Source: a virus
Strand: one strand, 5' to 3'
Length of the DNA stretch: 51,124 nt
Virus record (IMG/VR): IMGVR_UViG_3300044703_000055
Location: 1 to 51,124 of that record
Shown: piece after piece, positions 12,049 to 46,613 of the stretch
Layout of the letters: every line of letters starts with the position of its first letter
Position numbering within the stretch: position 1 is the first letter of the stretch
Translations under genes and position numbers: made by a program
The notes under the pieces: generated by a model
Seen by the model: only the letters and a program-made list of their open reading frames with translations
The model's database searches: none
What the model was told of the DNA's origin: nothing

Positions 12049-12693
12049 ATGACACAATCGTTAGCCGACCTTATGGGTGGTATATTTAATCCCATGAGGC
12101 GTAAGACGTCCCCCGAGCAAGCCGGCAATACCCTTAATCCAAAGAACGAATTGTTCTGCCGCTACTACACTCAAAACTCAGAGCTATTCGGCAACGCCAC
12201 CCACGCATATGCCGAAGCATTCGATTACAAACTCGATACTCTGTCCCAAAAACCGGTCTATTCCGATCCAGATGAGGACGGCAACACCGAGAAAATCGAA
12301 GACAGTGAGTACGACAGAGCTTGTCACGTGTGCGCCGTCGAGGCGTCACGCCTCCTGAGAAAGCCTGAGATTCAGGCTCGCATCACTGTCTTCTTGAACG
12401 AGCTGTTGAAGGACGAGATTGTAGATAGCCAGCTCGCTAAACTTATTACGCAGGACGCGGATAACACTGCGAAGATTGCCGCGGTTCGCGAGTACAATAA
12501 GCTGCGCGGTCGCATTATCGACAAGACGCAACAGGTCAGCCGCTTACCATTCGGAGAAACTGATTTATCCGCAGTGATCGCAGCGCTCCCGCAGGAGCGT
12601 CAAGACTATTTCTATGAAATTATCAAAGGACTTATCGAAGAAGCCGAGCTACTCCGAAGCACTGCAACGGCTCAAGGCGGCGGCACTCGGTAA
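12049..12693 (+). CDS. terS: terminase small subunit
   Basis: 214 residues from ATG at 12049 (T at -1, no Shine-Dalgarno). KNELFCRYYTQNSELFGNATHAYAEAF fits the N-terminal DNA-binding helix-turn-helix of small terminases (quoted region spans the first helices), and ASRLLRKPEIQARITVFLNE is the usual central helix. A long helical C-terminus follows. The product recognises phage DNA for packaging. Its 3' end overlaps the large-terminase gene by 80 bp, which supports the pairing. Confidence 0.75.
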   Translation: MTQSLADLMGGIFNPMRRKTSPEQAGNTLNPKNELFCRYYTQNSELFGNATHAYAEAFDYKLDTLSQKPVYSDPDEDGNTEKIEDSEYDRACHVCAVEASRLLRKPEIQARITVFLNELLKDEIVDSQLAKLITQDADNTAKIAAVREYNKLRGRIIDKTQQVSRLPFGETDLSAVIAALPQERQDYFYEIIKGLIEEAELLRSTATAQGGGTR

Positions 12694-14242
12694 TCCGGAA
12701 GACATACGCAGACGCTTCGGCCGCACGCCGATCCAGCTCCTCCGGTTCATCGACCCTAAAATCCGCTTCCCGAAGAAGCTGCGCATCATCTTTGCATGCC
12801 TATGGCTTGGACAGGACCTACAGGGCCGCCCGGCTACCCGCTTCATCATGAAAGGCCCGCGAGGCGGCGGCAAAAGCAAGATGCTTGGCGCCCTCGGCTT
12901 CGTCATCTGGTTTCTAAAGCTGCTCAACTGCATCGACATGGGTGGTTCGCTCATGCAGGCGCAGGGAGTCTACAACTACTTCACCGGCCACATATTCGCG
13001 CAGGAGGGCATCTCGGGCGCATTGCCTTCCGAGCCGACGATGCACCGGACGCAGAGCGACAGGGGCAACTACTTCAAGGCCGTGGCCGCATCGCAAAAGC
13101 AGGTGCGCGGTCCGCACCCCGATTGCCTTTTCGTGGACGAGGCGTGCGAAACCAAGGACGAGCTGATCCTGTCCGCGCTGCCAATGGTGGACACGTCGAG
13201 CACGCCGCTCGTGGTCATGACCTCGACCTTCCACAAAATCTTCGGGCTGTTTCAGGAGATATGGGACCAGGCGGACACTTACGAATACGTGCGTCTGTCG
13301 TGGGACGCATTCGATGTCTGCAAGCAGTTCGATCCCGGCATATGGGAGGACGAGAAGTACACGAAGTACATTCCCGACCTTGCAAAGCTGAAGGAGCGCG
13401 CGGCCGGGCGCACCGGAGATCCCGAAGGCTGGGTACCGATCGAGAACATCATCCAGGCGTGGCGTGAAAAGCCATCCATTGACTACTTCGACGTGGAGTA
13501 CATGGGCTCGCGCCCGAGCGCGGCCGGCATGGTCAACGATCCCGAGGACGTAGACGCCTGTGTCATCGACGCGCTGGGCGAGTACGCCTACCGGCCCGGA
13601 GCGGAAACGGCGGGAGGCATCGACTGGGGTTTCTCAGGCATGACCGTCTGGGACGTGGAGATGGCGCACCGGGACAATATCAAGGTGCAGCTTGAAGCAC
13701 GTCACTGGACGCAAGTGCTCTCCGATGTGATCTGTGCGGAGATCGCAGACGACGTGGTGAAGTATCGCATCCGAACCATTCACGCCGATGCTTCCCATCC
13801 CTTTGAGAATGGCGCGCTTCGCAAGGCAATCGCGGAGCGCATCGCGCAGCTCCCCGAGAAAGAGCAGTTTCGCTGCACCGTCGTCGAGGTTCCGTTCGGC
13901 CGACCCGTGCAAATCGCAGAGCAAGACGGCCAGAAGCGCGAGATCAATAAGCGGCTCGGCACCGAGAAGGAAATGATGCTCGGCAACTATCGCGTCTATT
14001 TCCAACGCCGCCTCAATCGCATCCCTCGCACATGCAAGGAGGGTATTTGGCAGCATAAGCGGTACCGATATCAGGAGGGCACCGATAAGCCGCTGAAGGA
14101 GGACGACCACTACCCCGATGCGAAGATGCTCGCCCAAAAACGATGGCTTCTCGGCAAGACCACGAGTGCGATGCCGCGGGAAGAAAAGCTGCGAAAACGC
14201 ACTTCCACAGTCACAGGCGGCTTGCTCGAAGAACGCTTTTAG
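12614..14242 (+). CDS. terL: terminase large subunit
   Basis: 542 residues. Walker A is MKGPRGGGKSKML (~79-91), Walker B with catalytic Glu is CLFVDEACE (~170-178), and VVMTSTFHK is motif III. The RNase H-like nuclease domain starts with GGIDWGFSGMTVWD (~337) and has further acidic residues in IHADASHP (~389) and DDHYPDAKMLAQKR (~500). It packages and cuts DNA during head filling. The start overlaps terS, with T at -1 and no Shine-Dalgarno. Confidence 0.92.
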   Translation: MKLSKDLSKKPSYSEALQRLKAAALGNPEDIRRRFGRTPIQLLRFIDPKIRFPKKLRIIFACLWLGQDLQGRPATRFIMKGPRGGGKSKMLGALGFVIWFLKLLNCIDMGGSLMQAQGVYNYFTGHIFAQEGISGALPSEPTMHRTQSDRGNYFKAVAASQKQVRGPHPDCLFVDEACETKDELILSALPMVDTSSTPLVVMTSTFHKIFGLFQEIWDQADTYEYVRLSWDAFDVCKQFDPGIWEDEKYTKYIPDLAKLKERAAGRTGDPEGWVPIENIIQAWREKPSIDYFDVEYMGSRPSAAGMVNDPEDVDACVIDALGEYAYRPGAETAGGIDWGFSGMTVWDVEMAHRDNIKVQLEARHWTQVLSDVICAEIADDVVKYRIRTIHADASHPFENGALRKAIAERIAQLPEKEQFRCTVVEVPFGRPVQIAEQDGQKREINKRLGTEKEMMLGNYRVYFQRRLNRIPRTCKEGIWQHKRYRYQEGTDKPLKEDDHYPDAKMLAQKRWLLGKTTSAMPREEKLRKRTSTVTGGLLEERF

Positions 14243-14261
14243 CGGGTGATATGATTACCGC

Positions 14262-16481
14262 ATGAAGTTACTCGGCGTCGAAATACGACGCGCTAAAGAA
14301 GCAGCCGAACCGAAGACCACAAAAAAAGGATTGGTGATTGGCGATAGCGGCACGCGCATTCTCGATGGCATCATAAGCGAGGAATACAACACCAAACTTA
14401 ACGGCGCGACGGGCATCGAAGTCTATGACGAGATGCGCAAGAGCGATGGCGCGGTCCGCGCCGCGGTGCAAGCAGTCACACTCCCGATCCGCGCGGCCGA
14501 ATGGTACATCAAACCCGCAAGCGAAGATGCAGCGGACAAGGCGGTCGCCGATTTTGTAACCGAAGAACTATTCAACAATCCATCATTCACGTTCGACGAC
14601 TTCCTGCGCCAAGCGCTTCTTTCCCTGCCGTTTGGCGTCATGGTGTTCGAGAAAGTGTTCACCACGCGCGATGTGGACGGAACGACGCGCATCGTGTGGG
14701 ACAAGCTCGGAGCGCGCATGCCGCGCTCGATTCAGAAGTGGGCGATTGGCGGCGGCAAACTCGGCATCCTGCAAAACAGATCGGACGGACAGCCTGTCGA
14801 AATTCCTTTCGAGAAGCTGATCGTTTTTGTCAACGAGATGGAGGGCGATAACTGGTGGGGCACCTCCATCCTTCGTGCCGCGTATAAGCACTGGTACATC
14901 AAGAATACGTTTTACAAGATCGACGCGATTGCATTCGAGCGCCAGGGGCTCGGCATTCCTTCCGGCACATTGCCGGACAATTACACCGAGCGCGATCGCT
15001 CGACGATGGAAAGCATCCTGAAGAACATGCGCGCGAATTCGCAATCGTATGTCATCAAGCCGAAAGACTACGAGATCGCATTCATGGACATGATGGCGCG
15101 CACCACGCGCGATCCGCAAAGCTCTATCGCTCACCACAACCGCGAGATCATGAAATGCGTGCTCGCCCAATTTCTCGAACTCGGTTCGACGGACGCCGGA
15201 GGTACGGGCGGCTCGCGTGCTCTCTCCGAGGATCACTCGGACCTGTTCTTGCAGTCGATCGAAAGCATTGCACGCTCCATAGCCTCCACATTCACGCGCC
15301 AGGCTGTGAAGGAGCTTGTGGACCTCAACTTCGAGGGAGTGAAACAGTACCCCAGCCTCGACTTCGAGGGCATCACCGCAGACGACGTGCAGGCGCTCTC
15401 CACTGCCTACCAGACGCTCCGTGGCGCGGGAGGCTTGACCGCGCAGGATGCGGACGAGGCTTACCTGCGCAAACTGCTCGGCTTGCCGGAATTGGACGAA
15501 CAAGGCGTGCGGGAGGAGAAGACGACCAATGTGCCGGTTGATCCGAACAATCCCAACCCCGGCACGCAGCAGCCCGATAACAAGCAGCCACCGAAGAAGA
15601 ACGCGAGCGAGCACACCCACGGCGTAAAAAAAAACTTTTCAGATGGCTTTAAGGCGTACCGGAAGCTCACGTTCGCGGAGGAAAAAGTAGATTTCGATAA
15701 GCTGCAGCAGAAGATGGACGAGCTGGAAAGCCAGTTCGACCAAGCCACGAAAAATATGCTGCATGATGCGCGCGACGAATACATGGCCGCATTCACGAAG
15801 GCAGCGCATGCCGGCGACACGCAGGCGATCAAGGACGCTACGCTAAAGGTGCAGAGTGACTACGCGCGGATAATCAAGAACGCGGGCAAGTCCGCATTCG
15901 AGTATGGGAAAAACAATGCGGCAAAAGAGATCGGCGTAGGGGCTCCGCCGAATCCGTCTGACCTTCTCCGGCAGATCGACATACAGGCGGATACGATTGC
16001 CGACGCACATATCACCGAGATCATATCCGACAGCAAACAGGCGTACGTGCAGGCGCTCAATAAGGGGCTATCGGTCACAGCCGCCCTCGCCGCAGCGGAT
16101 GCGGCAGCGGAAGCGGCTATTGACGCGCTCACGGACGACACCGGCGGTATTCTCCTATCCGCGTACATCAATCATGGCCGCAACGAGGTGTTCGACCGAA
16201 ACAGCGCAGACGTGCACGCGCTACAGCGTTCGGAAATTCTCGATGAGGTGACGTGCAACTATTGCATGTCGATTGACGGCCGCATTATCGAGAAGGACGA
16301 TGCATTTGGCCAGAACACCATCTTCCATAGCAACTGCCGTGGCATTTGGGTCGCGATCCTAAAGGACGAGGAGGAGCTGCCGAAAATCAGCGGCATACCG
16401 CAGTCACTGCGGGATCGGTTCGGAGATGCGGTGAATGATCTTATTCAGCCGAAGAGCCCGATCACGAGAAAACGGAGTTAA
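14262..16481 (+). CDS. portal protein (DUF935/Mu gp29-like) fused to gpF-like head morphogenesis domain
   Basis: 739 residues. Residues 1-430 match Mu-type portals: VYDEMRKSDGAVRAAVQAV, LPIRAAEWYI, VMVFEKVF, a WWGTSILRAAYKHWY segment and a Gly/Ser-rich LGSTDAGGTGGSRAL. After a Pro/Gln/Asn-rich linker (~430-455), a helical region leads to a gpF-like minor head domain with CNYCMSIDGR (~664) and HSNCRGIW, the Cys/His cluster typical of that family. Portal and gpF are separate genes in Mu, so this is a natural fusion. It is one of three phage-module starts without T at -1. Confidence 0.85.
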   Translation: MKLLGVEIRRAKEAAEPKTTKKGLVIGDSGTRILDGIISEEYNTKLNGATGIEVYDEMRKSDGAVRAAVQAVTLPIRAAEWYIKPASEDAADKAVADFVTEELFNNPSFTFDDFLRQALLSLPFGVMVFEKVFTTRDVDGTTRIVWDKLGARMPRSIQKWAIGGGKLGILQNRSDGQPVEIPFEKLIVFVNEMEGDNWWGTSILRAAYKHWYIKNTFYKIDAIAFERQGLGIPSGTLPDNYTERDRSTMESILKNMRANSQSYVIKPKDYEIAFMDMMARTTRDPQSSIAHHNREIMKCVLAQFLELGSTDAGGTGGSRALSEDHSDLFLQSIESIARSIASTFTRQAVKELVDLNFEGVKQYPSLDFEGITADDVQALSTAYQTLRGAGGLTAQDADEAYLRKLLGLPELDEQGVREEKTTNVPVDPNNPNPGTQQPDNKQPPKKNASEHTHGVKKNFSDGFKAYRKLTFAEEKVDFDKLQQKMDELESQFDQATKNMLHDARDEYMAAFTKAAHAGDTQAIKDATLKVQSDYARIIKNAGKSAFEYGKNNAAKEIGVGAPPNPSDLLRQIDIQADTIADAHITEIISDSKQAYVQALNKGLSVTAALAAADAAAEAAIDALTDDTGGILLSAYINHGRNEVFDRNSADVHALQRSEILDEVTCNYCMSIDGRIIEKDDAFGQNTIFHSNCRGIWVAILKDEEELPKISGIPQSLRDRFGDAVNDLIQPKSPITRKRS

Positions 16482-16487: not shown

Positions 16488-17381
16488 CTACGATTCGGCT
16501 TTGCCGGACCGTTTCAATAGACCTTTAAGTGCATCGGCAACCGGCTTGCCACCGACCAACACGGCCGATACGGCAACCGCCGTCTGACCTCCCGCTCCAG
16601 CTAAGGAGCAGATGGTAACTGCCGACAAGAACATGCTCATGTCGTATGCCTTCGCACATATCTTCTCGTGACCCCTGTCCCACCAGTTGCGAACACCATC
16701 GGAAAAAGATCGAACCGATTTATTAATGTTCTTTTCCCTTTCCTCCGGGTGTGATTTAGACGCTTCAATGTTCTCGGTTAGCGCGTGTAACTCGGTCCTA
16801 AGATTTTCATAATCCGCGATCTGCGCGTCACGATTAGCAATAGCCTCCTCTGAATTCGGCCGCTCTTGACGCAGGGCAGCAAGTTTCTCGTCAAGCAGTA
16901 ATCGCAATGCAGATGATAATAGAAGGATTTGCGGCCTGTTGGCCGAGACGGATTTAATCACCTTTTTGCCACGAACATTCTGGCCAGAGGTTGAATTTCG
17001 CCGTTTTTCGTCGGTCAACCCTCCAACAATTTCTTCAAGTTCTTTGAAAGTCCAAAGGCGTGCATCCGCTTTACGAAAGCGGGCTTTAGCTCGGGGAGTA
17101 TACTCGTTGGTCACCACCCACAATTCGTCCGCTTCGCGGGGAAGAAATGACGATTCCCATGCCCGAAGCACCGTATTCGCATTTCCACTGTTAAATGGCC
17201 TTTGATAGTCCTTACACTCGATCGCATATCGCCGCTTGACACCTGCTTGCGCTGCCTCGGCCAAGAGATCAACCGTAATTCCCTGTTGTATAACACCTTT
17301 GTCAACTATGAAGCCGGCCCGTCTTAAAAGCTCTGCGACATGAGTGGCCAGCGGGTGCATTTCTCGAGATTTGGCAGACAT
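16488..17381 (-). CDS. Mrr-like PD-(D/E)XK nuclease with coiled coil and membrane tail
   Basis: 297 residues, antisense within the head operon. The N-terminal ~110 residues form a restriction-endonuclease fold: ELLRRAGFIVDKGVIQQG, ITVDLLAEA (Asp) and YAIECKDYQRP (E-x-K), then DELWVVTNEY and KARFRKADARLWTFKELEE. The middle is a Glu/Lys-rich coiled coil (LRQERPNSEEAIANRDAQIA, LTENIEASK). The C-terminus has hydrophobic helices (MFLSAVTICSLAGAG, AVAVSAVLVGGKPV), suggesting membrane association. Cargo in this position and orientation is often a defence or superinfection-exclusion gene. I cannot name the system. It is separated by 6 bp from the portal stop and about 100 bp from the next head gene. 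Confidence 0.7.
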   Translation of the reverse strand: MSAKSREMHPLATHVAELLRRAGFIVDKGVIQQGITVDLLAEAAQAGVKRRYAIECKDYQRPFNSGNANTVLRAWESSFLPREADELWVVTNEYTPRAKARFRKADARLWTFKELEEIVGGLTDEKRRNSTSGQNVRGKKVIKSVSANRPQILLLSSALRLLLDEKLAALRQERPNSEEAIANRDAQIADYENLRTELHALTENIEASKSHPEEREKNINKSVRSFSDGVRNWWDRGHEKICAKAYDMSMFLSAVTICSLAGAGGQTAVAVSAVLVGGKPVADALKGLLKRSGKAES

Positions 17382-17485: not shown

Positions 17486-18703
17486 ATGAGCAAGAAAGAG
17501 CGCGATAGCAAGAAGCGAATCGCGTTCGTGCAGCTCTTCGCGGAAGCGTCGTCTTCCACGGCAGTACCGGAGGAGATACACGTTGTCCCAACGGGCAAGT
17601 GGGATCACCCGGTATACGGCGAGATGGAGATCACGCCGGCAGACATCGCGGAGTTCATACAGAACTTCAGTCGCGGTGTCCGCCGAGATATCCCCATCAC
17701 GCAAGGCCATGACAATGGCATGAGTGGAGGCGAGTTGCCCGCGATCGGCTGGTTCACAGAACTAAGCGATCGTGGATCAAGCGGCCTTTACGCTTCGGTC
17801 AAGTGGACCGATGAAGGCAAGCAGCTCCTTACAAGCGGTTCGTTCAAGTATTTCTCCCCGGAGTTTTACGAGCAGTACAGCGACCCGGAAACGGGCGTGA
17901 AGTACGGGCACGTGCTCGTGGGAGGCGCACTGACGAACAAGCCGTATTTCAAAGAGCTTGACCCGGTAGCCGCATTTAGCGAGCCGGAGATTAGAAATCA
18001 ATTTAATGATGATATGACACTGAAAGATATAATGGCAAAGAAGCCCAACGAACTCTCCGAGACGGAGAAAGCATTCGTTCGGGAACATAAAGGGGAACTC
18101 ACCGCGGAGCAGACTACTGCTTTTGCAAGCGTGTTCGATGAATCCGCCCCGGAGGAATCCGAGGAGGAGAAGACGGCGCGCGAGGAAAAGGAGAAGGGTG
18201 ACGCGAATGAGGCGAACGGGTTGAACCGCGACGGTTCGGCCAAAGTGGACGCATCTGAGAAAGTAATGGTTTCGGCGGCCGAACTTACTCTCCTCCGCCA
18301 AAAGGCGGATAAGGGGCAGGAAGCATTTTCGCTCGTTGAGACGATGAAGCTCGAATCCGAAATCTCGAAGATGGTCTTCACAGAGGCCAATAAGGAAGGA
18401 CGAATTCTTCCGAAGCAGCAAAAGTCCGTCGTTGACTTTATGAAAACGCTTTCCGAGAAGCAGCGCGATCAATTCCGCAACATCGTCAATAATCTTCCGA
18501 CCTATAAGTTGTTCGGAGAGATGGGCGATGCGGGCGGGGAACCGGCCGCAACGAAGGCAGCGGAAGTTGAGGTGGCAATCAACGCCAAGATCAAGGCGTC
18601 TGAAGGCAAGCTCTCGTACTCGGACGCGCTCTCGCAGGTTTCTAAAGAAAACCCGCAGCTCATCAAGGAATACAACGACGAGATGCAGGCCAACCGCGGT
18701 TAA
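17486..18703 (+). CDS. phage head maturation protease/scaffold (Mu gpI-like)
   Basis: 405 residues from ATG at 17486; a longer in-frame reading exists but begins in the divergent gap. The N-terminal ~180 residues match the Mu I-type protease: TGKWDHPVYGEMEITPADIA, RRDIPITQGHDNG, IGWFTEL, LYASVKWTDEGKQLL, FKYFSPEFYE and HVLVGGALTNKPYF. The rest is a charged, helical scaffold-like tail with long Glu/Lys runs. The protease part typically removes the scaffold after capsid assembly. It lies directly before the decoration and capsid genes, as expected. Confidence 0.82.
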   Translation: MSKKERDSKKRIAFVQLFAEASSSTAVPEEIHVVPTGKWDHPVYGEMEITPADIAEFIQNFSRGVRRDIPITQGHDNGMSGGELPAIGWFTELSDRGSSGLYASVKWTDEGKQLLTSGSFKYFSPEFYEQYSDPETGVKYGHVLVGGALTNKPYFKELDPVAAFSEPEIRNQFNDDMTLKDIMAKKPNELSETEKAFVREHKGELTAEQTTAFASVFDESAPEESEEEKTAREEKEKGDANEANGLNRDGSAKVDASEKVMVSAAELTLLRQKADKGQEAFSLVETMKLESEISKMVFTEANKEGRILPKQQKSVVDFMKTLSEKQRDQFRNIVNNLPTYKLFGEMGDAGGEPAATKAAEVEVAINAKIKASEGKLSYSDALSQVSKENPQLIKEYNDEMQANRG

Positions 18704-18727: not shown

Positions 18728-19093
18728 ATGTCTACACAAATTACTGGCCACGTTCGCAGCTCGACTGCCGACGCGGCCATCACGCTCCACCAGGTGCTGA
18801 AGAACACTTCGACCGGCGTGGACGTGGCAACCGCCGGCACCGATAAAATCGTTGGCGTTGCGCAAAACGCAGCGGCTACGGGCGAACAGGTGGGCGTTCA
18901 GTTCACCGGCACTGCGAAGTGCATCGCATCGGCAGCTATTAGCAAGGGCGCGTGGGTCACTGCGACCACGGGCGGCAAGGTCGTCACGACCGTGACCGAC
19001 AAGAACGTCGTACTCGGCCAAGCATTGGAGGCGGCAGCGGCTGACGGCGACTTCATCGAAGTCCAGCTCGGTATCTTCACGCTCTCCGTTTAA
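18728..19093 (+). CDS. capsid decoration protein (DUF2190-like)
   Basis: 121 residues, beta-rich. ATAGTDKIVGVAQNAAATGEQVG, ISKGAWVTATTGGKVV and VLGQALEAAAADGDFIEVQL (each partial) are typical of head-stabilising proteins of the DUF2190 type. It sits immediately upstream of the capsid gene, the usual place. Start has T at -1 and an AT-rich, Shine-Dalgarno-free leader. Confidence 0.78.
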   Translation: MSTQITGHVRSSTADAAITLHQVLKNTSTGVDVATAGTDKIVGVAQNAAATGEQVGVQFTGTAKCIASAAISKGAWVTATTGGKVVTTVTDKNVVLGQALEAAAADGDFIEVQLGIFTLSV

Positions 19094-19112: not shown

Positions 19113-20051
19113 ATGTCTACAAATCGTTATCAAGGATACGACCCGATATTGTCGAACGCGGCTATTGCCTACACGAACGACGCCTATATCGCTTCGGAAC
19201 TCCTCCCGACCCTTCCGGTCAATTTCCAGACAGGCAAACACTGGATTTACAATCAGGGACGTTTCCGCAACACACCTTCGAAGCGTGCCACAGGCGCGAA
19301 ATCCGGTGAAGTCGAGCTGACGCTCACGACCGGTAATCCTTATTTCTGCGAGGATCATGCTTTGAAGCAATTCGTCGCAGACGAGGATGTGGAAAACGCG
19401 ACTACTCCGACCGATCCGTACACGGATGCCAACGAGAACGTGAACGAGATGCTACTCATTGGTCGCGAGATCGAGGCGGCGACCCTTCTCACTTCGACGG
19501 CAAACATTACGCAGAACACTACGCTTTCGGGCACGTCTCGCTTGGACGACTACTCGAACAGCGATCCGTTCGCCACGATTGAGACAGGTCGCCAGACGAT
19601 CCACAGCGCTACGCACCTGACACCTAACGTGCTCGTCATGGGCAAGCAGGTATGGGACAAGCTGAAGTACCACCCGGCTCTTATGGAGCGTGTGAAGTAC
19701 AGCCAGCGGGCGCAAATGACTACCGATTTGGTCGCCTCCCTTTTGGAGGTTGACCGCATCTTGGTCGCGGCTGCCGGTTACAACACTTCGAAAGAAGGCC
19801 AGACCGACAGCATGTCGTACATCTGGGGCAAGGACATGCTCCTCGCGTACGTGGCTCCGAAGATCGCTCCGAAGATGCTCTCCCTTGGTATAAATTACCA
19901 ATGGGCGAAGAAGTCCAAGGTTGTTCAGCGCCTCCGCGGTACGGACGAGGAAGACCGCCAGGGTACATACATCCGTGTCGGCGGCGATTACTACGACATG
20001 AACATCACGTCCGCATCGTGCGGCTACCTGATGAAGACTGTCGTTTCCTAA
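19113..20051 (+). CDS. major capsid protein
   Basis: 312 residues with no delta domain visible. The pattern of an N-terminal arm (NAAIAYTNDAYIASELLPTL), an E-loop-like beta segment (GKHWIYNQGRF), a long spine-like helix (ENVNEMLLIGREIEAATLL), and a P-domain (HLTPNVLVMGKQVWDKLKYH, EVDRILVAAAGYN) fits HK97-fold capsid proteins of Mu-like and related phages. It is flanked by protease/scaffold and decoration genes. The scaffold function is thus supplied by the upstream gene. Confidence 0.82.
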   Translation: MSTNRYQGYDPILSNAAIAYTNDAYIASELLPTLPVNFQTGKHWIYNQGRFRNTPSKRATGAKSGEVELTLTTGNPYFCEDHALKQFVADEDVENATTPTDPYTDANENVNEMLLIGREIEAATLLTSTANITQNTTLSGTSRLDDYSNSDPFATIETGRQTIHSATHLTPNVLVMGKQVWDKLKYHPALMERVKYSQRAQMTTDLVASLLEVDRILVAAAGYNTSKEGQTDSMSYIWGKDMLLAYVAPKIAPKMLSLGINYQWAKKSKVVQRLRGTDEEDRQGTYIRVGGDYYDMNITSASCGYLMKTVVS

Positions 20052-20111: not shown

Positions 20112-20660
20112 ATGGCAGGAACAATTGATAACAGGGATGTCGGTATTGCCGCACCTGAGTTCATCGTCAAAAATAAATCCGGCGTTACGCGCACCAAGCG
20201 AACGGGCACTGTTGTCCGCGAGATCGCGGTTGCGACGTTCGACACGGCAGCGGCCGACAGCTCAGGCGTTGCGAATACGACCATCGCGGCTCACGGCCTC
20301 GGTGTCTACCTTCCTACGAAGGCGATCATCACGCGCGTATGGGTAGACGTTGTAACGACATTCACATCTGCAACCGATGCAGCAACGATTGCGCTTAAGG
20401 CGCAGTCAGCGAACGACATCGTATCCGCTATCTCCATTGCAGACGCATCAAACGTCTGGGATGCGGGTATTCACGGGTCCAAGATCGGCCTTCCGGCTCT
20501 TGCGGACACGACATCGGAAACCGCGCTTGCCGTCTCAGCGCTGTTCGCCGCTTCGATGCTTAAGCTCACCGCGGTGCGCGAGCTTACCGCCACGGTCGCA
20601 GTGGAAGCGCTCACAGCAGGCAAAGCCAATATATTCGTGGAGTACGTAGTCTCCGACTAA
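20112..20660 (+). CDS. putative virion surface protein
   Basis: 182 residues, Ala/Thr/Val-rich and beta-prone (TGTVVREIAVATFDTAAAD, YLPTKAIITRVWVDVVTTF, AGKANIFVEYVVSD). No cysteine cluster or membrane segment. It is the first gene of the island between capsid and connectors, so a decoration or head-fibre component is likely. No family recognised. Confidence 0.65.
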   Translation: MAGTIDNRDVGIAAPEFIVKNKSGVTRTKRTGTVVREIAVATFDTAAADSSGVANTTIAAHGLGVYLPTKAIITRVWVDVVTTFTSATDAATIALKAQSANDIVSAISIADASNVWDAGIHGSKIGLPALADTTSETALAVSALFAASMLKLTAVRELTATVAVEALTAGKANIFVEYVVSD

Positions 20661-20664
20661 GCGT

Positions 20665-21096
20665 ATGGAGTACTTCGTTGCTCGGAACCTAAATCATGAC
20701 GGACGGGAATACGTTGTCGGAAGCATCGTGCAACTGACGACGGAAGCCGCCCAACCGCTTTTGGACGTAGGGGTCCTCAGTTCGACAGCTATCGAGGCTG
20801 CCGCACCAGTGCAGGAGCCTGTGGTGGAGGATGCCCAGCCAGAGGCGGCGGACGTTGCCACTGCGGGAGGCACGCCAACGGAGACAGGAGAACCGTCGCT
20901 CGATACCGACCTGACCGAGAGCACCGACCCCGATACTCGCGAGATCGGTCCGCACTCGGAAACCTCCCCGGCGCCCGTCAAGGAGGCACCCGCACCAGTG
21001 CAGGAGCCCGAAAAGCCGAAGCGTGCCGCTACAGGCCGCAGGAGCAAGCCTCAAGAGCCTACGGAGCCGGAGAATGATCCATCCGCAAACCTCTAG
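20665..21096 (+). CDS. small protein with long Pro/Glu/Ala disordered tail
   Basis: 143 residues. The first ~45 (YFVARNLNHDGREYVVGSIV, LTTEAAQPLLDVGVL) form a compact fold seen in small phage head proteins near connectors. The rest is disordered, with APVQEPVVED and APAPVQEPEKPKRAA sharing an APVQEP repeat and ending in a basic patch (ATGRRSKP). Spacing to the previous stop is 4 bp (TAAGCGT before ATG). Virion role inferred from position. Confidence 0.6.
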   Translation: MEYFVARNLNHDGREYVVGSIVQLTTEAAQPLLDVGVLSSTAIEAAAPVQEPVVEDAQPEAADVATAGGTPTETGEPSLDTDLTESTDPDTREIGPHSETSPAPVKEAPAPVQEPEKPKRAATGRRSKPQEPTEPENDPSANL

Positions 21097-21099
21097 CGT

Positions 21100-21588
21100 A
21101 TGAGCCTCACATCTATTCAGACGCTTAGAGCCTCGGCAGCGCAGGCTACAGCAGGAACGGTCACCGGATCGGCTGTCAGCTTGCAGCAGGCATTCAAGGA
21201 ATTGAATGTGCAGCTCGCAGTATCCGCGGCGGGAACGGATGCGGGCGACACGCTGGATGTGTACGTCGACACGAGCTTCGACGGAGGCGCGACCTTCGTG
21301 AACATCGGCCACTTCACGCAGGTGCTCGGCAACGGCGGCGCAAAGACATTTGTGATGTCCTTCTGCAATGCCAATCCGGGCACGTCGGCCGTCGTGAACG
21401 TCACCAGCGATGCAGCAGCAGGCGCAACCCGTCAAATCGATTTCGGCTCGCAGCTTCGCTATCGCGGCATCATGGTGGACGGGGATGCAAACGGCTCATT
21501 CACTTATTCGCTAACAGCGTTTCTCAAATATTATGCCGAAATACGCCATCAAAGTTACGGCCGCAGACAAGCTGCACATTCAGGATAG
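21100..21588 (+). CDS. putative virion protein, beta-sandwich type
   Basis: 162 residues with alternating hydrophobic beta strands (LNVQLAVSAAGTDAGDTLD, VYVDTSFDGGATFVNIGHFT, FVMSFCNANPGTSAVVNVT). This resembles the jelly-roll-like proteins that decorate capsids or form neck fibres. The 3' end overlaps the next gene by 56 bp; the last ~20 residues are in the overlap and less certain. Start T at -1, no Shine-Dalgarno. Confidence 0.6.
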   Translation: MSLTSIQTLRASAAQATAGTVTGSAVSLQQAFKELNVQLAVSAAGTDAGDTLDVYVDTSFDGGATFVNIGHFTQVLGNGGAKTFVMSFCNANPGTSAVVNVTSDAAAGATRQIDFGSQLRYRGIMVDGDANGSFTYSLTAFLKYYAEIRHQSYGRRQAAHSG

Positions 21589-21829
21589 TGACACTACCGT
21601 GCTCTCGGTCCAATTCGACATCGAAAAGGACGGCGAGGTAATAACCACCATGCGGCACGGCTTCCTGCTCGATACGAGCGTGGCGGATGTGGAAGCCGAA
21701 TTGCAGAAGGTGCTCGACGCATACATTCAGGATGCGGAAACCGCCGAGAGTAAATCTGAGTACGCCAAGGCTGACGCACAAGCAGATGAGACGATCGCGG
21801 AGATCGTCGGAAAGGAGATTAGCAACTAG
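21533..21829 (+). CDS. small acidic phage protein
   Basis: 98 residues. Beta-rich first half (KYAIKVTAADKLHIQDSD, VLSVQFDIEKDGEVITTMRH) and a helical acidic C-terminus (VADVEAELQKVLDAYIQDAE, ADAQADETIAEIVGKEI). The pattern of a short beta domain plus helix is common among head-completion or chaperone proteins, but no family is recognised. It overlaps the upstream gene by 56 bp. Confidence 0.6.
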   Translation: MPKYAIKVTAADKLHIQDSDTTVLSVQFDIEKDGEVITTMRHGFLLDTSVADVEAELQKVLDAYIQDAETAESKSEYAKADAQADETIAEIVGKEISN

Positions 21830-21839
21830 CAAAACGATT

Positions 21840-22469
21840 ATGAATAAATTAGTTCGGATGGTGTACGCTGGACGAATCCCCATTGACGCCAACGTGCAGA
21901 TGCGTCACCTCGACCGCTTCGGTAATCCAAAGCCGATATTTCAAGAAAATCCACTGTGCATTTTTCTTATCAAATGGGGCATTCTCTCCCCGTTGTGGAT
22001 CAACGGACCGCACGCAGCTCGTCTTTCCCGATTCTTGGGGTATTGGGCCACTGAAAAAGACGGTCGCAACCTCATCACCGACGCAGGGCGCGCAGCAGTA
22101 GCTTCGCGGATCAATGGATCTGGTGGCGCAGCGGCATTTACCGCGATCGGCCAAGGCACCGGAGCGACGGCCGCCAACGCTGCCGACACGACGCTGCAAA
22201 CCGAAGTCAAAGCCGATGGTACGGCAGCATCGGGCGTGCATGCGCTCGCCACTGCATCCGTCACAGTTTCACGTGTAACCACAACGGTCACAAACGATAC
22301 GGCGCAGCTCGTGGGTACCATTGCGGAAACCGCAACAATCGCAGTTACCGAGTCCGGCGTGTTCAACGCCGACACGAACGGCACGCTCTTGTGCCGACAG
22401 ACCTTCTCGGCAGTGAACGTGATCTCAGGCGATTCGATTCAGTTAACGTGGAAGATTAAAGCCGCATAG
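21840..22469 (+). CDS. virion protein with C-terminal beta domain shared with 31840-32403
   Basis: 209 residues from ATG at 21840 (T at -1). Residues ~95-209 (FTAIGQGTGATAANAADTTL, LQTEVKADGTA, VTNDTAQLVGTIAET, AVTESGVFNADTNG, LLCRQTFSAVNVISGDSIQL) resemble the second half of the protein at 31840-32403, both being strand-rich with an IG.GT.A..A..T.L.TE start and a final Q-L-T beta strand. The N-terminal ~80 residues are distinct. A fibre or decoration role is likely. Confidence 0.62.
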   Translation: MNKLVRMVYAGRIPIDANVQMRHLDRFGNPKPIFQENPLCIFLIKWGILSPLWINGPHAARLSRFLGYWATEKDGRNLITDAGRAAVASRINGSGGAAAFTAIGQGTGATAANAADTTLQTEVKADGTAASGVHALATASVTVSRVTTTVTNDTAQLVGTIAETATIAVTESGVFNADTNGTLLCRQTFSAVNVISGDSIQLTWKIKAA

Positions 22470-22474
22470 ACCGT

Positions 22475-22984: not shown

Positions 22985-22993
22985 CCCTATGCT

Positions 22994-23671: not shown

Positions 23672-23679
23672 CAAGCGAT

Positions 23680-32933: not shown

Positions 32934-32941
32934 TACTGCGT

Positions 32942-33160: not shown

Positions 33161-33173
33161 TCACAACTCGAAT

Positions 33174-34107: not shown

Positions 34108-34118
34108 GTCGGTCCTAG

Positions 34119-34169
34119 CGCTCTCTCCCCTTTGCGCACTCATAGGCGCTTCGACAAAGAGGGAGAGCG
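34119..34169 (+). terminator. hairpin after the lysin-like gene
   Basis: A long imperfect stem: the CGCTCTCTCCC arm at 34119-34129 and the GGGAGAGCG arm at 34161-34169, with a ~30-nt loop, then a small GGTGG/CCACC hairpin. No clean T-run follows, so it is structural or a weak terminator rather than a confident one. Confidence 0.4.
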
Positions 34170-34210
34170 GTGGGTCAAACCACCACTTATAAACTAGCAA
34201 CTGAAATTAT

Positions 34211-36565: not shown

Positions 36566-36616
36566 CCCGATCTTCCCCAAACGACCCTCTACCTCTGGTC
36601 CCCAGAAGCTCGACAA

Positions 36617-39034: not shown

Positions 39035-39790
39035 ATGAACAAGCTCATCATCGGCCTCGCCGACAAAACTTCCGCGCTCCCCACTAAGCAGGGGTTTCTT
39101 TTAATAGACGACGGACCGATAGCAGACCATTTTTTAAAGAAGCAGAAGCGTGCGGTGCTCTTTGACCACGCAGAACACAGCCTCAATCCGCTTGCGGGAA
39201 TGACCTACCAGCAGGCGCGGGAACTCACCGCGGTCTTGTACGGCTCGGAGGGAAAGGACACGCTCACGGTGCGCAACGGCAAGCGCTCACTGACGCGAAT
39301 GCTCCTCGAAGCGGACAGCCTCGACAAGATTAAGGGAGGAAAGAGCGACGCCGATAAGGAGGCTCAGGCTACGGTAGACGATATCCTTCTCTCGCCCGTC
39401 TTACGGGACGTCCTATGCCGGCGGACGAACTTCACCTTCAAGGAAGGGCAATCGATTGTCGCCAAGATCAATCGTGCGGAAATTGGAGACAACGACGCCT
39501 TTATCCTTGGCTCGCTGCTTATCTCCCAATTCAAGGGGCAGATCATTGTCCCTGATTTTGGATTTTACGCGCGAGACTTCCACGCCTCCTTAGTCCGTCA
39601 GAACCGCCTCATCGCGGGGATCTATTCGCTCTCCGAACTGGACAAGAAGCTCCGGCAGCTCTGCCTCTTGATGCCGAAGGTGCCGCTGCAATGCACTGTG
39701 GAGGATGCCCAGGTGCTGGCTTTATATGAAGGCCTGACGCCGGGCACCGTCGCATACTCGGACTATGTGTCGGGCGCGGTGGGTGCCTAG
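39035..39790 (+). CDS. VirD4/HerA-like protein lacking the P-loop
   Basis: 251 residues. Order of elements matches the C-terminal two-thirds of the coupling-protein fold: AVLFDHAEHSLNPLAGM (as LDP..gfNPL), LTRMLLEADSL helices, VAKINRAEIGDNDAFILGSL, IIVPDFGFYARDFHASLVRQ (position of Walker B, but no D-E pair), NRLIAGIYSLSELDKKLRQL (as the glutamine/arginine segment), and EDAQVLALYEG. No Walker A exists upstream in any frame. It appears to be a truncated, ATPase-dead paralogue or regulatory relative of the protein at 4906-7047. Start has T at -1. Confidence 0.6.
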   Translation: MNKLIIGLADKTSALPTKQGFLLIDDGPIADHFLKKQKRAVLFDHAEHSLNPLAGMTYQQARELTAVLYGSEGKDTLTVRNGKRSLTRMLLEADSLDKIKGGKSDADKEAQATVDDILLSPVLRDVLCRRTNFTFKEGQSIVAKINRAEIGDNDAFILGSLLISQFKGQIIVPDFGFYARDFHASLVRQNRLIAGIYSLSELDKKLRQLCLLMPKVPLQCTVEDAQVLALYEGLTPGTVAYSDYVSGAVGA

Positions 39791-42662: not shown

Positions 42663-42804
42663 CGCCGCGCGCCTCGCCTTCCTTGCCAAATACGGTCGCA
42701 GCGAGACCGACGTGTGGATGGATAGCCAAGGCAAGGAATACATCTACGTGGGAGATTACCGCAGGCTGTACTTAGAGGAGGGATTACCACATCAAAATAA
42801 ATAA
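42655..42804 (+). CDS. 49-residue small protein
   Basis: MPNAARLAFLAKYGRSETDV, WMDSQGKEYIYVGDYRRLYL, EEGLPHQNK. Compact, mixed charge, T at -1. It overlaps the previous gene by eight bases and ends two bases before the exonuclease ATG. Too short for ordinary length filters, but it fits the unbroken chain of coupled starts. Confidence 0.55.
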   Translation: MPNAARLAFLAKYGRSETDVWMDSQGKEYIYVGDYRRLYLEEGLPHQNK

Positions 42805-42806
42805 CT

Positions 42807-43745
42807 ATGAAGAAGATCATTCGAGAGACAGATGAAAAACTAGGAATCGTACAAGTCACTATCGCAGACGAACGCTGGTACATGAGGCCAGCGAAAGACC
42901 CGGTAACGGGATTGCCCACACACTTGGCCGTCCCGTCCGTCACCTGGATTGCCGGTCACTACCCCAAGGGTATCGGCTTTTATAAATGGCTCGCAGACCG
43001 AGGCTGGGACGAGGCGCAGGCTGTAAAGCAAGCCGCGGGCAACAAGGGCTCGAAAGTCCACGCGGCCATCAGCGCCATCATCGAGGGCGAAGAAGTCCGC
43101 ATTGATAGCAAGTATCTCAATCCCGAAACCGGCGTGTTCGAGGAACTCACACTCGAAGAATGCGACGCCATTAAATCGTTCGTCGATTGGCAGAAGGCAA
43201 CGAACCCGGAGACGATCGTGCAAGACGTGACGATCTTTTCGGAGAAGTACAACTACGCCGGAACGATTGACTACATCTGCAAGATCGACGGGAGGGTCTA
43301 TCTCGTCGATTTCAAGACGAGCGCGGAGGTGTGGCCGGAGTACGAGCTGCAGGTGTCGGCCTACAAGCAGCCCTTGCAGAATGCGGAATTCAGCATTCCC
43401 GGGTTCGTGGACGTGTCCGACATCCAGCTTGCCATCCTGCAGATCGGCTACCGACGCAACAAGGCCGGGTACAAGTGGAACGAGATCGAAGATCAGTTCC
43501 CCCTATTCCTGGCGGCTCGGCAAATCTGGGCGAAGGAGTGCGACGGCCAGCAGCCGAAGAAGCGCGATTACCCGATTGTGCTTTCACCGAAGCGCAAGGC
43601 ACCGCAGGTCGATGAGCCGAAGGAACAGTTGCCATTACCAGAAGATAAGTACGAAGCCGAGGCCGAACCCGAGCCTATGCCCGAGGCCGCGCCCGAGCCT
43701 ATGCCCGAGCGACCGCCGCGAAAGAAGGCGAAGGCCGCCAAATAA
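42807..43745 (+). CDS. Cas4/RecB-like PD-(D/E)XK exonuclease
   Basis: 312 residues. The nuclease core has GSKVHAAISAIIEGEE (helix), YAGTIDYICKIDGRVYLVDF with Asp ~155, VDFKTSAE with Asp ~168 and Lys ~170, and YELQVSAYKQPLQ as the following Q-x-x-x-Y helix. This is the phage exonuclease/RecB type used in recombination or DNA degradation. A PEPMPE-repeat and Lys-rich tail (PRKKAKAAK) follows, likely disordered and DNA-binding. It is followed by TM2 and SSB-like genes, pointing to a recombination unit. Confidence 0.82.
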   Translation: MKKIIRETDEKLGIVQVTIADERWYMRPAKDPVTGLPTHLAVPSVTWIAGHYPKGIGFYKWLADRGWDEAQAVKQAAGNKGSKVHAAISAIIEGEEVRIDSKYLNPETGVFEELTLEECDAIKSFVDWQKATNPETIVQDVTIFSEKYNYAGTIDYICKIDGRVYLVDFKTSAEVWPEYELQVSAYKQPLQNAEFSIPGFVDVSDIQLAILQIGYRRNKAGYKWNEIEDQFPLFLAARQIWAKECDGQQPKKRDYPIVLSPKRKAPQVDEPKEQLPLPEDKYEAEAEPEPMPEAAPEPMPERPPRKKAKAAK

Positions 43746-43748
43746 CAT

Positions 43749-43988
43749 ATGGACAGACCTATTTCGCCCAAGTCCCGCACCGTCGCCCTTGTGCTGTGCT
43801 TCTTCTTCGGTGCACTCGGTATCCACCGCATCTATGTCGGGAAGCTGGGGAGCGGCACCACAATGATCATCGTGAGCCTCACCATGATCGGCCTGCTGGT
43901 CACTGGCGTGTGGGCGTTCGTGGACATGGTCGTGATCGCGTGTGGGCAGTTCCGCGATGCAGAAGGGCAGCTTATTAGCAACTGGTAA
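43749..43988 (+). CDS. TM2-domain membrane protein
   Basis: 79 residues: SRTVALVLCFFFGALGIHRI, YVGKLGSGTTMIIVSLTMIG, LLVTGVWAFVDMVVIACGQF. The R-x-Y-x-G-K turn between two membrane helices is the TM2 signature. In cells it is often a membrane-sensing or scavenging protein; in a phage early cluster its role is unclear. T at -1, 3 bp after the exonuclease stop. Confidence 0.8.
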   Translation: MDRPISPKSRTVALVLCFFFGALGIHRIYVGKLGSGTTMIIVSLTMIGLLVTGVWAFVDMVVIACGQFRDAEGQLISNW

Positions 43989-43993
43989 AACCT

Positions 43994-44128
43994 ATGGACG
44001 ACGCAGAACGTGACGAATACGAGAAGCAAATAAAGCAGCTCAACGAGCAGCTTGACGACGCAATGGAGCAGCTAGGAAGCGCAATCGAACTATTAAACGA
44101 AATAAGACGCATGACCAAAAATGTATGA
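43994..44128 (+). CDS. 44-residue coiled-coil protein
   Basis: MDDAERDEYEKQIKQLNEQL, DDAMEQLGSAIELLNEIRRM, TKNV. Heptad spacing of Leu/Ile in EYEKQIKQLNEQLDDAMEQL suggests a dimeric coiled coil. The stop overlaps the ATG of the SSB-like gene (ATGA at 44125), so it is likely co-translated and may be an assembly partner. Confidence 0.6.
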   Translation: MDDAERDEYEKQIKQLNEQLDDAMEQLGSAIELLNEIRRMTKNV

Positions 44129-44967
44129 CTACCGAAACACCATTCGACCCATCAGTAGCTAGTGGAGAAAGCAATTACAACGCGCCGCGCCCTCTCGAAT
44201 TGAACGAGGTGATGCTAAACGGCGACGGTGACGTGAACGAAGTGACGCCGGGAAAATTCGAGCGCAAAGGGGGTTACTTCCGCAAGCGCCTCATCGTCGG
44301 TAATCCCAAGGGGGAGAAGCCCGAGGAAGTGAACCTTGGCACCGAAGTCAGGCTGGTATTCCTCAAAATCCGCCGCCGCCTGGTGCAGCGCGGCGCAGAC
44401 GGCAAAATCGTCCGCTCTACAACCGAGCACAATGCCCCGAACGAATCCGTGTTCCTTTACGAGGACGGTTCAAAGCAGCCGGTAGCCGGTGTCGCGTCGG
44501 ATCTCCGCACGAAGCACGAGGGCTTGCGTACCGTGCAGCACGTCTACGCACTTCTGCTTGGCGCGAAAGAGCCGGAGTTGGTGAAGCTGGTCCTTAAAGG
44601 CGCGTCGCTCGGCAGTGACGTGAAGGCAGATGGCGTGACGAAGTTCTACGAGTACCTTGGCTCATTCGGGAAGGAGCACTTCTACGAATACGAGACGGTG
44701 CTGAAGCCCGTGTTCGAACAGGGGAAGAAATCGTACTTCGCCATCAACTTCGTTCGCGGCGAGAAGCTAGACGCCGCGACGTACGCCCTTGCCATGCAGC
44801 ATATGAAAGCCGTGCACGAAAAGTGCGTGGAGATCGACACAGCACGTGCGTTGAAGATCGCGAGAGGCGTCACGAGTGACATCGTGCCGGACGGGGAAGC
44901 GGCGCCGGAGGAGACAGGCGTCGAATACCCAAAGGACGACATTAATCCGGATGATATCCCGTTCTAG
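44125..44967 (+). CDS. single-stranded DNA-binding-like phage protein
   Basis: 280 residues. The C-terminus ends PKDDINPDDIPF, the acidic tip (DDIPF) by which bacterial and phage SSBs recruit partners. The body has a strand-rich YFRKRLIVGNPKG, LGTEVRLVFLKIRRRLVQRG and EPELVKLVLKGASLGSDVKA that may form an OB-like fold. No canonical SSB Pfam is evident. It sits between the exonuclease and a zinc-finger gene, consistent with a recombination/replication set. Confidence 0.65.
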   Translation: MTTETPFDPSVASGESNYNAPRPLELNEVMLNGDGDVNEVTPGKFERKGGYFRKRLIVGNPKGEKPEEVNLGTEVRLVFLKIRRRLVQRGADGKIVRSTTEHNAPNESVFLYEDGSKQPVAGVASDLRTKHEGLRTVQHVYALLLGAKEPELVKLVLKGASLGSDVKADGVTKFYEYLGSFGKEHFYEYETVLKPVFEQGKKSYFAINFVRGEKLDAATYALAMQHMKAVHEKCVEIDTARALKIARGVTSDIVPDGEAAPEETGVEYPKDDINPDDIPF

Positions 44968-44969
44968 CT

Positions 44970-45278
44970 ATGGGAAAGCATCTTCACGAGTGCGAAAAAT
45001 GCGAGCGCTCATTCGCAACCGCACGAGGGCTACAACAGCACGATCGAAAAGCTCATCCCTATATCCCACCGCCGCCTCCAAAACGTGAAACGCACACTGC
45101 ACCGGATGAGTACGAGAACCATACATTGATAGGCGGTAACACGTTGTCTCTCGGCGACATCGTATGGGTTGGTCGAAAGACCGTCATCACGTCTATTACC
45201 AAAACCGAAGGCTCTAAAGACGTGTCGGTCGTGCTTCGGATCACACGCAAATGGTGGAGCGCAGAGGAAATCTCGTAA
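44970..45278 (+). CDS. C2H2 zinc-finger protein
   Basis: 102 residues. HECEKCERSFATARGLQQHD with RKAH gives C8-x2-C11-x12-H24-x4-H29, the classical eukaryote-type C2H2 spacing rather than the Ros/MucR form. A Pro-rich linker (YIPPPPPKRE) follows, then a strand-rich domain (VWVGRKTVITSITKTEGSKD, VSVVLRITRKWW). T at -1. DNA-binding regulator or replication partner; no family named. Confidence 0.72.
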   Translation: MGKHLHECEKCERSFATARGLQQHDRKAHPYIPPPPPKRETHTAPDEYENHTLIGGNTLSLGDIVWVGRKTVITSITKTEGSKDVSVVLRITRKWWSAEEIS

Positions 45279-45281
45279 CCT

Positions 45282-45611
45282 ATGCCCCTCACCATCGAAC
45301 GCATCGAACAGCGCATGAAGGGAGTGGAACTCACGCCGCGGCAGGTACGCGATTACAAAACGTACCTGACGGCGATCTACTCCCTTTATGCCGGTGAGAT
45401 GAAGCAGATCGCCACCGCGCGAGCAAGCGCGTGGCTCGACATCCGCGCCGAGAAGAACAGCGACAAGGCCGCGGATCGCGAGTGGCACACGACGCCTAAG
45501 GGTATCCGCGAGATCGAACTGAAATGGGACATGCGCCGGATCGACAAACTTATCAGCGCCCTCAATACGCACATGCGCGTCATGGAAGGCGAAGCTAAAA
45601 ACATCATGTAG
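45282..45611 (+). CDS. helical phage protein of unknown function
   Basis: 109 residues: VELTPRQVRDYKTYLTAIYS, YAGEMKQIATARASAWLDIR, KGIREIELKWDMRRIDKLIS. Three or four long helices, charged. T at -1. Fits the chain of early-type genes; could be a structural or regulatory helical bundle. Confidence 0.6.
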   Translation: MPLTIERIEQRMKGVELTPRQVRDYKTYLTAIYSLYAGEMKQIATARASAWLDIRAEKNSDKAADREWHTTPKGIREIELKWDMRRIDKLISALNTHMRVMEGEAKNIM

Positions 45612-45613
45612 GT

Positions 45614-45889
45614 ATGGAGCCTATTGGAGCGATCGTTCAGAAAAAGACTATCGAAAGGCCGAGCCGAAAGACCGAACGCGGGGAATTCCTGCAAGAATTC
45701 TTGCAGAACATTAAACCAGGTTGGGACGCCGCCCGCTTCGGAGAATTGACGATCGGGCGTATCGCGAGAAAACTTCAGGGCGTTCCAACTAAGGATCTGT
45801 ACTACCTCAAACGTGTTTGCGAGGACAGCAAGAACTACGCAAAGCGGTTCTTCTGGGAGCTTAATGCCGAGAAGCACAACAATCTATGA
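45614..45889 (+). CDS. 91-residue phage protein
   Basis: Basic N-terminus (VQKKTIERPSRKTERGEFLQ), central KPGWDAARFGELTIGRIARK and LYYLKRVCEDSKNYAKRFFW. Mixed helix/loop. T at -1; stop overlaps the next ATG. Resembles small DNA-binding proteins but no family is clear. Confidence 0.6.
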   Translation: MEPIGAIVQKKTIERPSRKTERGEFLQEFLQNIKPGWDAARFGELTIGRIARKLQGVPTKDLYYLKRVCEDSKNYAKRFFWELNAEKHNNL

Positions 45890-46218
45890 ACCAACCAACG
45901 CAGCAAGAGCGGATATTGAAGGTGCTCGAATCCGTCCGCGACGGCACACACCAGATCGCCGACGAGTACATTCGCCATCATCCCAGCGGAGACGGCGTAA
46001 GCGCCCGATACTTCAAGCAAGTCATGCTTATTTCGGAAGTGAACGGCCGCATTAGCGAGCTACGGGCGAAGGGTCGCGACATCGAGACCAGCAAGCAGAA
46101 GGATCGGTACGGCTTCGCCTACCATCGGCTTGCGCCGGATCGCGCCGCCCTCAGCCCCGCCGAGCTGATCGCGTGGAGTAAGGAGGCGGTTAAAAAGGAA
46201 TTTCCCACTACTGTATGA
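45886..46218 (+). CDS. winged-helix DNA-binding protein
   Basis: 110 residues. RILKVLESVRDGTHQIADEY, then VNGRISELRAKGRDIETSKQ and GFAYHRLAPD, form the pattern of phage-type winged helix-turn-helix domains (HTH_39-like, short helix, recognition helix, wing). T at -1, overlap with the previous stop. Likely a regulator of the early cluster. Confidence 0.72.
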   Translation: MNQPTQQERILKVLESVRDGTHQIADEYIRHHPSGDGVSARYFKQVMLISEVNGRISELRAKGRDIETSKQKDRYGFAYHRLAPDRAALSPAELIAWSKEAVKKEFPTTV

Positions 46219-46352
46219 GAACCAGAAAAGAGATAGAGGAAGGAGCATCGAATTTTGCACCCGATGGTATGGAGAACATGCGGGGTTCAATGTTGGAAGT
46301 CCTCCTCGACATCCGAGACCTCCTTACCCGCCCACCAGCGGCGACGCTATAA
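46215..46352 (+). CDS. 45-residue small protein
   Basis: MRTRKEIEEGASNFAPDGME, NMRGSMLEVLLDIRDLLTRP, PAATL, from ATG at 46215 (ATGA overlap with the winged-helix stop). Helical C-terminus (LEVLLDIRDLL). T at -1. Function unknown. Confidence 0.5.
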   Translation: MRTRKEIEEGASNFAPDGMENMRGSMLEVLLDIRDLLTRPPAATL

Positions 46353-46355
46353 GGT

Positions 46356-46613
46356 ATGAACGACTGGAAAAAGGAATTCGACGACACATTCATCCCTGTT
46401 TACTTCGACGCTGAAAGTCGGCGTGATCGGTACACGCACATGAGTGGTAAGCCGGGAGAAATCAAAGCATTCATCTCCCGCCTCCTCGAAGAGCAGAAGA
46501 AGCGGCATGTCAAGATTTTGGATGGACTAAAACTGGACCCATGGAACGGTAAGGGTGATTGGGATCACGCTCTGGCCGCGGCAATTAGAAGGATCACCGG
46601 CGGCAACGCCTAA
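46356..46613 (+). CDS. 85-residue phage protein
   Basis: MNDWKKEFDDTFIPVYFDAE, GKPGEIKAFISRLLEEQKKR and HVKILDGLKLDPWNGKGDWD. The EIK-x-FI-x-x-LL-x-EQ helix is a pattern I associate with short proteins from phage and candidate-phylum metagenomes, though this is recollection only. T at -1. Last member of the chain. Confidence 0.6.
   Translation: MNDWKKEFDDTFIPVYFDAESRRDRYTHMSGKPGEIKAFISRLLEEQKKRHVKILDGLKLDPWNGKGDWDHALAAAIRRITGGNA

Follow-up and report, generated by a model that had tools for sequence, protein, structure and literature searches.

The window analysed here, the whole 51,124-bp stretch of IMG/VR record IMGVR_UViG_3300044703_000055, carries an integrated phage whose lytic modules probably initiate translation independently of Shine-Dalgarno (SD) pairing, in a mode that would be driven by the initiator tRNA. 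Genes lying directly behind a promoter would be translated from leaderless mRNAs, and operon-internal genes would be started at U-AUG, seen in the DNA as T immediately before the start codon (T-ATG, with T at position −1). The pattern, its conservation among related viruses and the division of the starts into two classes can be read directly from the DNA.

Organisation of the prophage

The phage is integrated at a tRNA-Ala att site and encodes a tyrosine integrase. The features used below are as follows.

1983–3357, plus strand: attL, the 3′ part of tRNA-Ala (copy at 1983–2037), and tyrosine integrase (2170–3357)
7958–10962, plus strand: left-arm genes conserved in the clade (7958, 8660, 10564, 10780), with strong SD sites
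12049–12693, plus strand: terminase small subunit, TerS (PF03592/phrog_51); T-ATG
12614–14242, plus strand: terminase large subunit, TerL (phrog_2); T-ATG overlapping TerS; T at −1 in 13/13 orthologues
14262–16481, plus strand: Mu-like portal (PF06074, 3e-61); predicted leaderless, extended −10 element TGATATGAT ending 6 nt before ATG; C at −1
17486–18703, plus strand: head maturation protease (phrog_328); predicted leaderless, TATCAT 6 nt before ATG; C at −1
18728–19093, plus strand: scaffold/decoration protein (phrog_673); T-ATG; T at −1 in 16/16 orthologues
19113–20051, plus strand: major capsid protein, MCP (phrog_1005, 1.6e-80); T-ATG after a G-poor leader; T at −1 in 16/16 orthologues
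20112–26873, plus strand: head-tail connector and tail genes; no SD; T-ATG at 20112, 20665, 21100, 21533, 21840, 22475, 22994, 23680, 25002, 25909 and 26373
26883–26984, plus strand: 33-aa membrane-type peptide; predicted leaderless, TAGAAT 6 nt before ATG, C at −1; box conserved in relatives
26981–27142, plus strand: small gene of 53 aa; T-ATG within an ATGA overlap; orthologues begin directly behind the TAGAAT box
27155–34498, plus strand: tail genes, all T-ATG without SD: minor tail 27155, chaperone 28139, tape measure 28669, hub 30361, then 31840, 32409, 32942, 33174 and 34211
39035–39790, plus strand: gene without assigned function; T-ATG, 112 nt from the previous stop
42807–46613, plus strand: recombination/early module, all T-ATG: exonuclease 42807 (phrog_298), 43749, 44125, 44970, 45282, 45614, 45886 and 46356
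50748–50823, minus strand: tRNA-Ala(GGC) on the attR side, intact

The att tRNA fits an alphaproteobacterial host. Plasmid matches to the att sequence of the window came from Paracoccus only, and the att tRNAs or flanks of the relatives match Paracoccus or Sphingomonas, with one Rhizobium IS5; indirectly, this speaks against a cyanobacterial host. Since an acidic protein fragment at the end of the window (50924–51121, minus strand) received no NCBIfam name, the assignment relies on att tRNAs and flanking sequence. The structural module is of the Mu/B3 type, with terminase, Mu portal (PF06074), protease, scaffold, capsid (phrog_1005), tape measure and hub. In the annotated phage collection the capsid had no relative above 60% identity and TerL had no match at all, and a scan of genomes with the MCP profile returned only distant relatives (30–39%) from Sumerlaeota and one MAG, with none from the core clade.

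Several genes deserve mention in their own right. The frame of the tail-assembly chaperone gene 28139 ends in AGT AAA AAA AAA TAA, and a conserved frame continues to 28665, just 5′ of the tape measure gene, with neither a T-ATG nor an SD-led start of its own; a programmed frameshift is probable at 28139–28665. The C-terminal family phrog_5417 occurs in both 21840–22469 and 31840–32403, which are perhaps paralogous virion proteins. The cargo gene at 34727–36616 (minus strand) joins a caspase domain (PF00656) to an FGE-sulfatase domain (PF03781), an arrangement reminiscent of defence genes.

T precedes the start codons of the lytic modules

In the regions 12000–34200 and 42800–46400, the leftmost ATG of each frame was taken as the start, so that the base at −1 played no part in the choice. 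T occupied −1 in 28 of 33 starts (binomial p = 1.1e-15), compared with 89/457 (19.5%) of the same-strand ATGs that are not starts and 15/136 (11%) of the in-frame internal ATGs. Most of the five misses are due to mis-called starts: 17435 and 21687 stand in for the conserved starts 17486 and 21840, 26954 falls in the 26883/26981 gene pair, and 33271 overlaps an ORF with a T-ATG start at 33174. The fifth, 14262, is one of the predicted leaderless starts treated below. In the curated list of starts T was found in 34 of 37, the only exceptions being 14262, 17486 and 26883, so that the original prediction proved correct both in placing T before most phage-module start codons and in naming these three exceptions.

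It had also left room for better start codons further upstream. Hardly any exist, as in nearly every case the open frame 5′ of the T-ATG holds no ATG, GTG or TTG. The tight packing described earlier, including ATGA overlaps, was likewise found, most starts lying −4 to +12 nt from the previous stop; the TGA stop of 26883, for example, overlaps the T-ATG of 26981. Reinitiation as the sole cause of T at −1 was rejected, because starts located 60–137 nt past the previous stop carry T as well.

Leaders without SD sites

Pairing of the curated leaders with the anti-SD sequence was negligible (median 0.1 kcal/mol; GGAG, GAGG or AGGA in 3/34), as the original prediction had it, and the energies were at or weaker than those of shuffled leaders. 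Its description of these leaders as AT-rich holds in part, and they are better described as G-poor, with 16% G at positions −15 to −2 against 27% in the region. Across the clade G is scarce in the leaders, T is favoured at −3 and −2 (T 0.52 and A 0.22 at −3) and A is absent at −1. They are less structured than internal windows (−4.9 versus −7.9 kcal/mol, p = 2e-4), to a degree that does not exceed shuffled leaders and is thus a consequence of base composition. Among orthologue-anchored lytic starts, ATG was used in 146/146, a count that the anchoring itself favours, and an SD site was present in 3/133, with TerL left out because its AGGAG, at about −20, sits inside the coding sequence of the overlapping TerS gene.

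Conservation of T at −1 among relatives

The comparison covered 30 viral contigs with GC contents of 32–65%, related to the window through capsid, terminase or portal. In the capsid tree the window belongs to a 23-member clade (SH-aLRT 99) ranging from 33 to 64% GC, in which nearly all marker genes have T at −1. This base was kept in every orthologue of MCP (16/16), scaffold (16/16) and TerL (13/13), while the remaining leader bases had diverged. Its retention despite fully diverged leaders and a GC range of 32–65% indicates that it is maintained now, and the idea that the modules merely evolved in another host is not supported in that form.

In the sister clade, T (36) and C (29) share −1 among 72 starts; its members L088, L094, L097, L101 and L102 have C or T after A-rich leaders such as aaaaac-ATG and accacc-ATG. 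This usage is a variant of the same rule. In L006, L112 and L128, which are more distantly related, SD sites are present and the base before the marker-gene start codons is mostly A. In three AT-rich members (L023, L025 and L026) CATG is missing from the coding sequence (0 versus 47 expected), which suggests avoidance of a restriction enzyme; the window does not avoid CATG (ratio 1.13).

Starts with a −10 box six nucleotides upstream

The three exceptions share a feature that the original prediction had missed. Each is preceded by a −10 box, TATGAT at 14262, TATCAT at 17486 and TAGAAT at 26883, ending exactly 6 nt 5′ of the ATG. In a sigma-70 promoter, a 6-nt spacer places the transcription start at the A of the ATG. 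The mRNAs of the portal, the protease and 26883 should therefore be leaderless, with their predicted 5′ ends at the A of AUG. The same spacing argument has been applied to leaderless genes with a TANNNT motif (PMC3160421). Over 287 non-redundant starts, TANNNT lay at this 6-nt spacing in 36, which stands out as a sharp peak. Alignment of 34 leaderless promoters gave TATNAT as the consensus box and no −35 box conserved across them. For the protease, a −10 box close to the ATG was found in 14 of 15 orthologues.

The two classes of starts differ at −1. For seven orthologue-anchored genes in the window's clade, T was found in only 8/36 starts having a −10 box at 6 nt and in 110/120 of the remaining ones (Fisher p = 1.2e-15), the contigs being related, so that the counts are not independent and p-values overstate independence. 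With spacers of 8 and 9 nt, where some boxes may be chance matches, T was present in 16/19 and 8/9, respectively; here a leader of one to three bases is expected, and T at −1 returns. In the leaderless class C predominates at −1. C is the usual base just before a transcription start. Given the predicted transcription starts, T is thus kept where the base at −1 should be transcribed and is free to vary where it should not, which points to selection at the level of RNA, acting in translation, against a DNA-level or mutational cause.

Two of these promoters have neighbours worth noting. A gene for an Mrr-type restriction nuclease (16488–17381, minus strand) is located between portal and protease, and minus-strand ORFs occupy the same slot in L004 and L019; this opposite-strand gene may be the reason why the protease keeps a leaderless promoter of its own. 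The 33-aa peptide 26883–26984 is an insertion that separates the small gene 26981 from a conserved −10 box, which this gene follows directly in relatives.

SD-led genes in the left arm

The left arm of the same genomes is started in the conventional manner. Its orthologous starts have SD sites in 16/18 cases, T at −1 in 1/18 and GTG or TTG as start codon in 6/18. SD sites had been claimed for left-arm and cargo starts, and they are there (median −6.7). From the earlier list of such starts, 4906 and 7134 do have T at −1, 4906 combining it with a moderate SD match (−7.4), but 8380 is a minus-strand start (8123–8380). The SD-led left arm is conserved phage DNA in the clade and not recent cargo. 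It follows that the host cells of the phage do read SD sites, and that its lytic modules manage without them. The left arm also encodes a TraG/VirD4-like ATPase (4906–7047), conserved in seven relatives; its neighbours are 8660, a protein with a primase-type zinc finger, and 9665, an antirestriction protein resembling ArdC.

Proposed mechanism and alternative explanations

In the reading that we favour, the start codon would be picked by the initiator tRNA instead of by pairing with 16S rRNA, and two devices would serve this end. Genes with their own promoter (portal, protease and 26883) would have the −10 element 6 nt from the ATG, so that transcription would begin at the A of AUG. Operon-internal genes would offer a G-poor, weakly structured leader with U at −1, which could pair with A37 of fMet-tRNA and extend the codon-anticodon contact from three bases to four; many of these starts may additionally be coupled to the preceding stop. 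We infer the transcription start positions, the U−1:A37 pairing and the lack of any role of SD pairing during infection from sequence. Position −1 has been implicated in stabilising the pairing with fMet-tRNA, and pyrimidines at −1/−2 have been proposed for cyanobacterial initiation (PMC5622118). In bacteria, leaderless genes are marked by a TANNNT some 12 bp before the start, but leaderless initiation is only possible for promoter-proximal genes, and distal ones usually need SD sites (PMC3160421). The clade appears to have another solution for its operon-distal genes, namely T-ATG. Of the earlier interpretation, the SD-independent mode is supported, and an RNA-level role of T at −1 through extended pairing with the initiator tRNA is plausible. 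Two observations run counter to the simplest form of this mechanism: UAUG is not depleted within coding sequence (observed/expected 0.92–1.00), which argues against U at −1 alone making a strong start, and C at −1 is nearly as common as T in the sister clade, which argues against pure U:A37 pairing.

It is also conceivable, although unlikely, that SD-less genes of the alphaproteobacterial hosts themselves are started in the same way and that the phage simply follows. Alphaproteobacteria do initiate much of their translation without SD; in Caulobacter, an SD site is missing from 75.4% of starts and 9.6% of CDSs are leaderless (PMC4117421), from which it follows that such hosts can translate these mRNAs. 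A host-wide preference exists, moreover, in some bacteria, as T precedes 22/36 annotated ATG starts of a Pseudanabaena (cyanobacterial) plasmid. However, when the same bias was looked for in proxy host DNA from Paracoccus, Novosphingobium and Rhizobium, following the original prediction, which had named such a bias in host genes as a refutation, T at −1 amounted to only 5–7%; the actual host is represented by about 2 kb. Alphaproteobacterial phages gave 0/18 (CbK) and 8/42 (a Rhizobium phage), and the left-arm genes of the very same phages use SD sites. T at −1 as a general trait of phages was rejected on annotated ATG starts, with 1/42 in B3, 3/29 in Laroye and the above counts for CbK and the Rhizobium phage; Pelagibacter phage HTVC008M was at background.

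The contrast within one genome between an SD-led left arm and SD-free lytic modules could also arise if a factor encoded or induced by the phage disabled SD-anti-SD initiation in the lytic phase, by removal of the anti-SD or by a change to an initiation factor or the ribosome, so that leaderless and U-AUG messages would win and the SD-led host and left-arm genes be silenced. Removal of the anti-SD by a MazF toxin has been described in bacteria (PMC12274833; Vesper 2011, as cited in PMC9841429). We regard such a switch as improbable, since SD-like words are not avoided within the phage genes (GGAG ratio 1.01 in the window). Furthermore, the 25 commonest families assigned by Pfam and PHROGs to 62 right-arm and small proteins include neither S21 nor an initiation factor, and neither an rRNA-cutting nuclease nor a relative of MazF.

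An endoribonuclease cutting the polycistronic mRNA at U^AUG, making all genes leaderless, would need U at −1 only where the leader is transcribed, as observed, but the undepleted UAUG of the coding sequence, where strong depletion would be expected, makes it very improbable. An artefact of wrong start calls, restriction-site avoidance or chance has next to no probability: CATG avoidance does exclude C at −1 in the AT-rich relatives, but upstream alternative starts are missing, p is about 1e-15, the pattern is conserved in 30 contigs and the CATG ratio of the window speaks against avoidance there.

Comparison with known systems

Initiation by the initiator tRNA at leaderless and U-AUG starts, as favoured here, resembles cyanobacterial initiation at starts with pyrimidines at −1/−2 in the enrichment of T at −1 and the reduced use of SD (PMC5622118). 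The examples cited include Synechocystis starts verified at the protein N terminus (Sazuka and Ohara 1996, as cited by others). The annotated ATG starts of the Pseudanabaena plasmid have T or C at −1 in 29/36, T making up 22. The pyrimidine enrichment at the 120 non-leaderless anchored starts is of the same kind, but here T reaches 85–92%, SD sites are almost absent, the usage is confined to the lytic modules, the hosts are apparently non-cyanobacterial and T is lacking at leaderless starts. With the TA-led leaderless genes (PMC3160421), the portal, protease and 26883 share TANNNT at a fixed distance about 12 bp upstream, the 6-nt spacer, the absence of an SD site and the ATG start. Such genes were found in only 2 of 117 alphaproteobacterial genomes surveyed, and according to the same study operon-distal genes usually need SD sites (PMC3160421); here they use T-ATG instead. 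Initiation in Bacteroidota, with its Kozak-like starts, is similar in lacking SD sites and in having weakly structured leaders, but its positive determinant is A at −3 (PMC6847099), a position mostly occupied by T in the present leaders. The B3/Mu-type phages (Beetrevirus) share the Mu-like order of portal, protease and capsid families; in contrast, SD sites precede 0.73 of the annotated B3 starts and T 1/42, and the window has a tyrosine integrase at its tRNA-Ala att site.

Experiments on an extended codon-anticodon interaction reportedly concerned single genes, with chloroplast petA as the case, whereas the clade presents a natural module-wide rule. The likeness to that interaction with the initiator tRNA (Esposito 2003, as quoted in PMC9841429) is U at −1 beside the AUG. 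The literature searched, which was covered in part, held no description of this rule for any phage. The way in which bacteria begin translating operon-internal genes that lack SD sites is an open question, for which the clade provides a natural experiment beside SD-led genes. As a nearly invariant U at −1 is present or absent according to expected transcription, the U−1:A37 idea becomes directly testable, and T at −1 without an SD site could help gene finders that score SD sites to place starts in such viruses. Taken together, the module-wide use of U-AUG in prophages whose alphaproteobacterial hosts apparently rely on SD sites looks like a new combination of known elements, the leaderless TA-led gene and the pyrimidine at −1.
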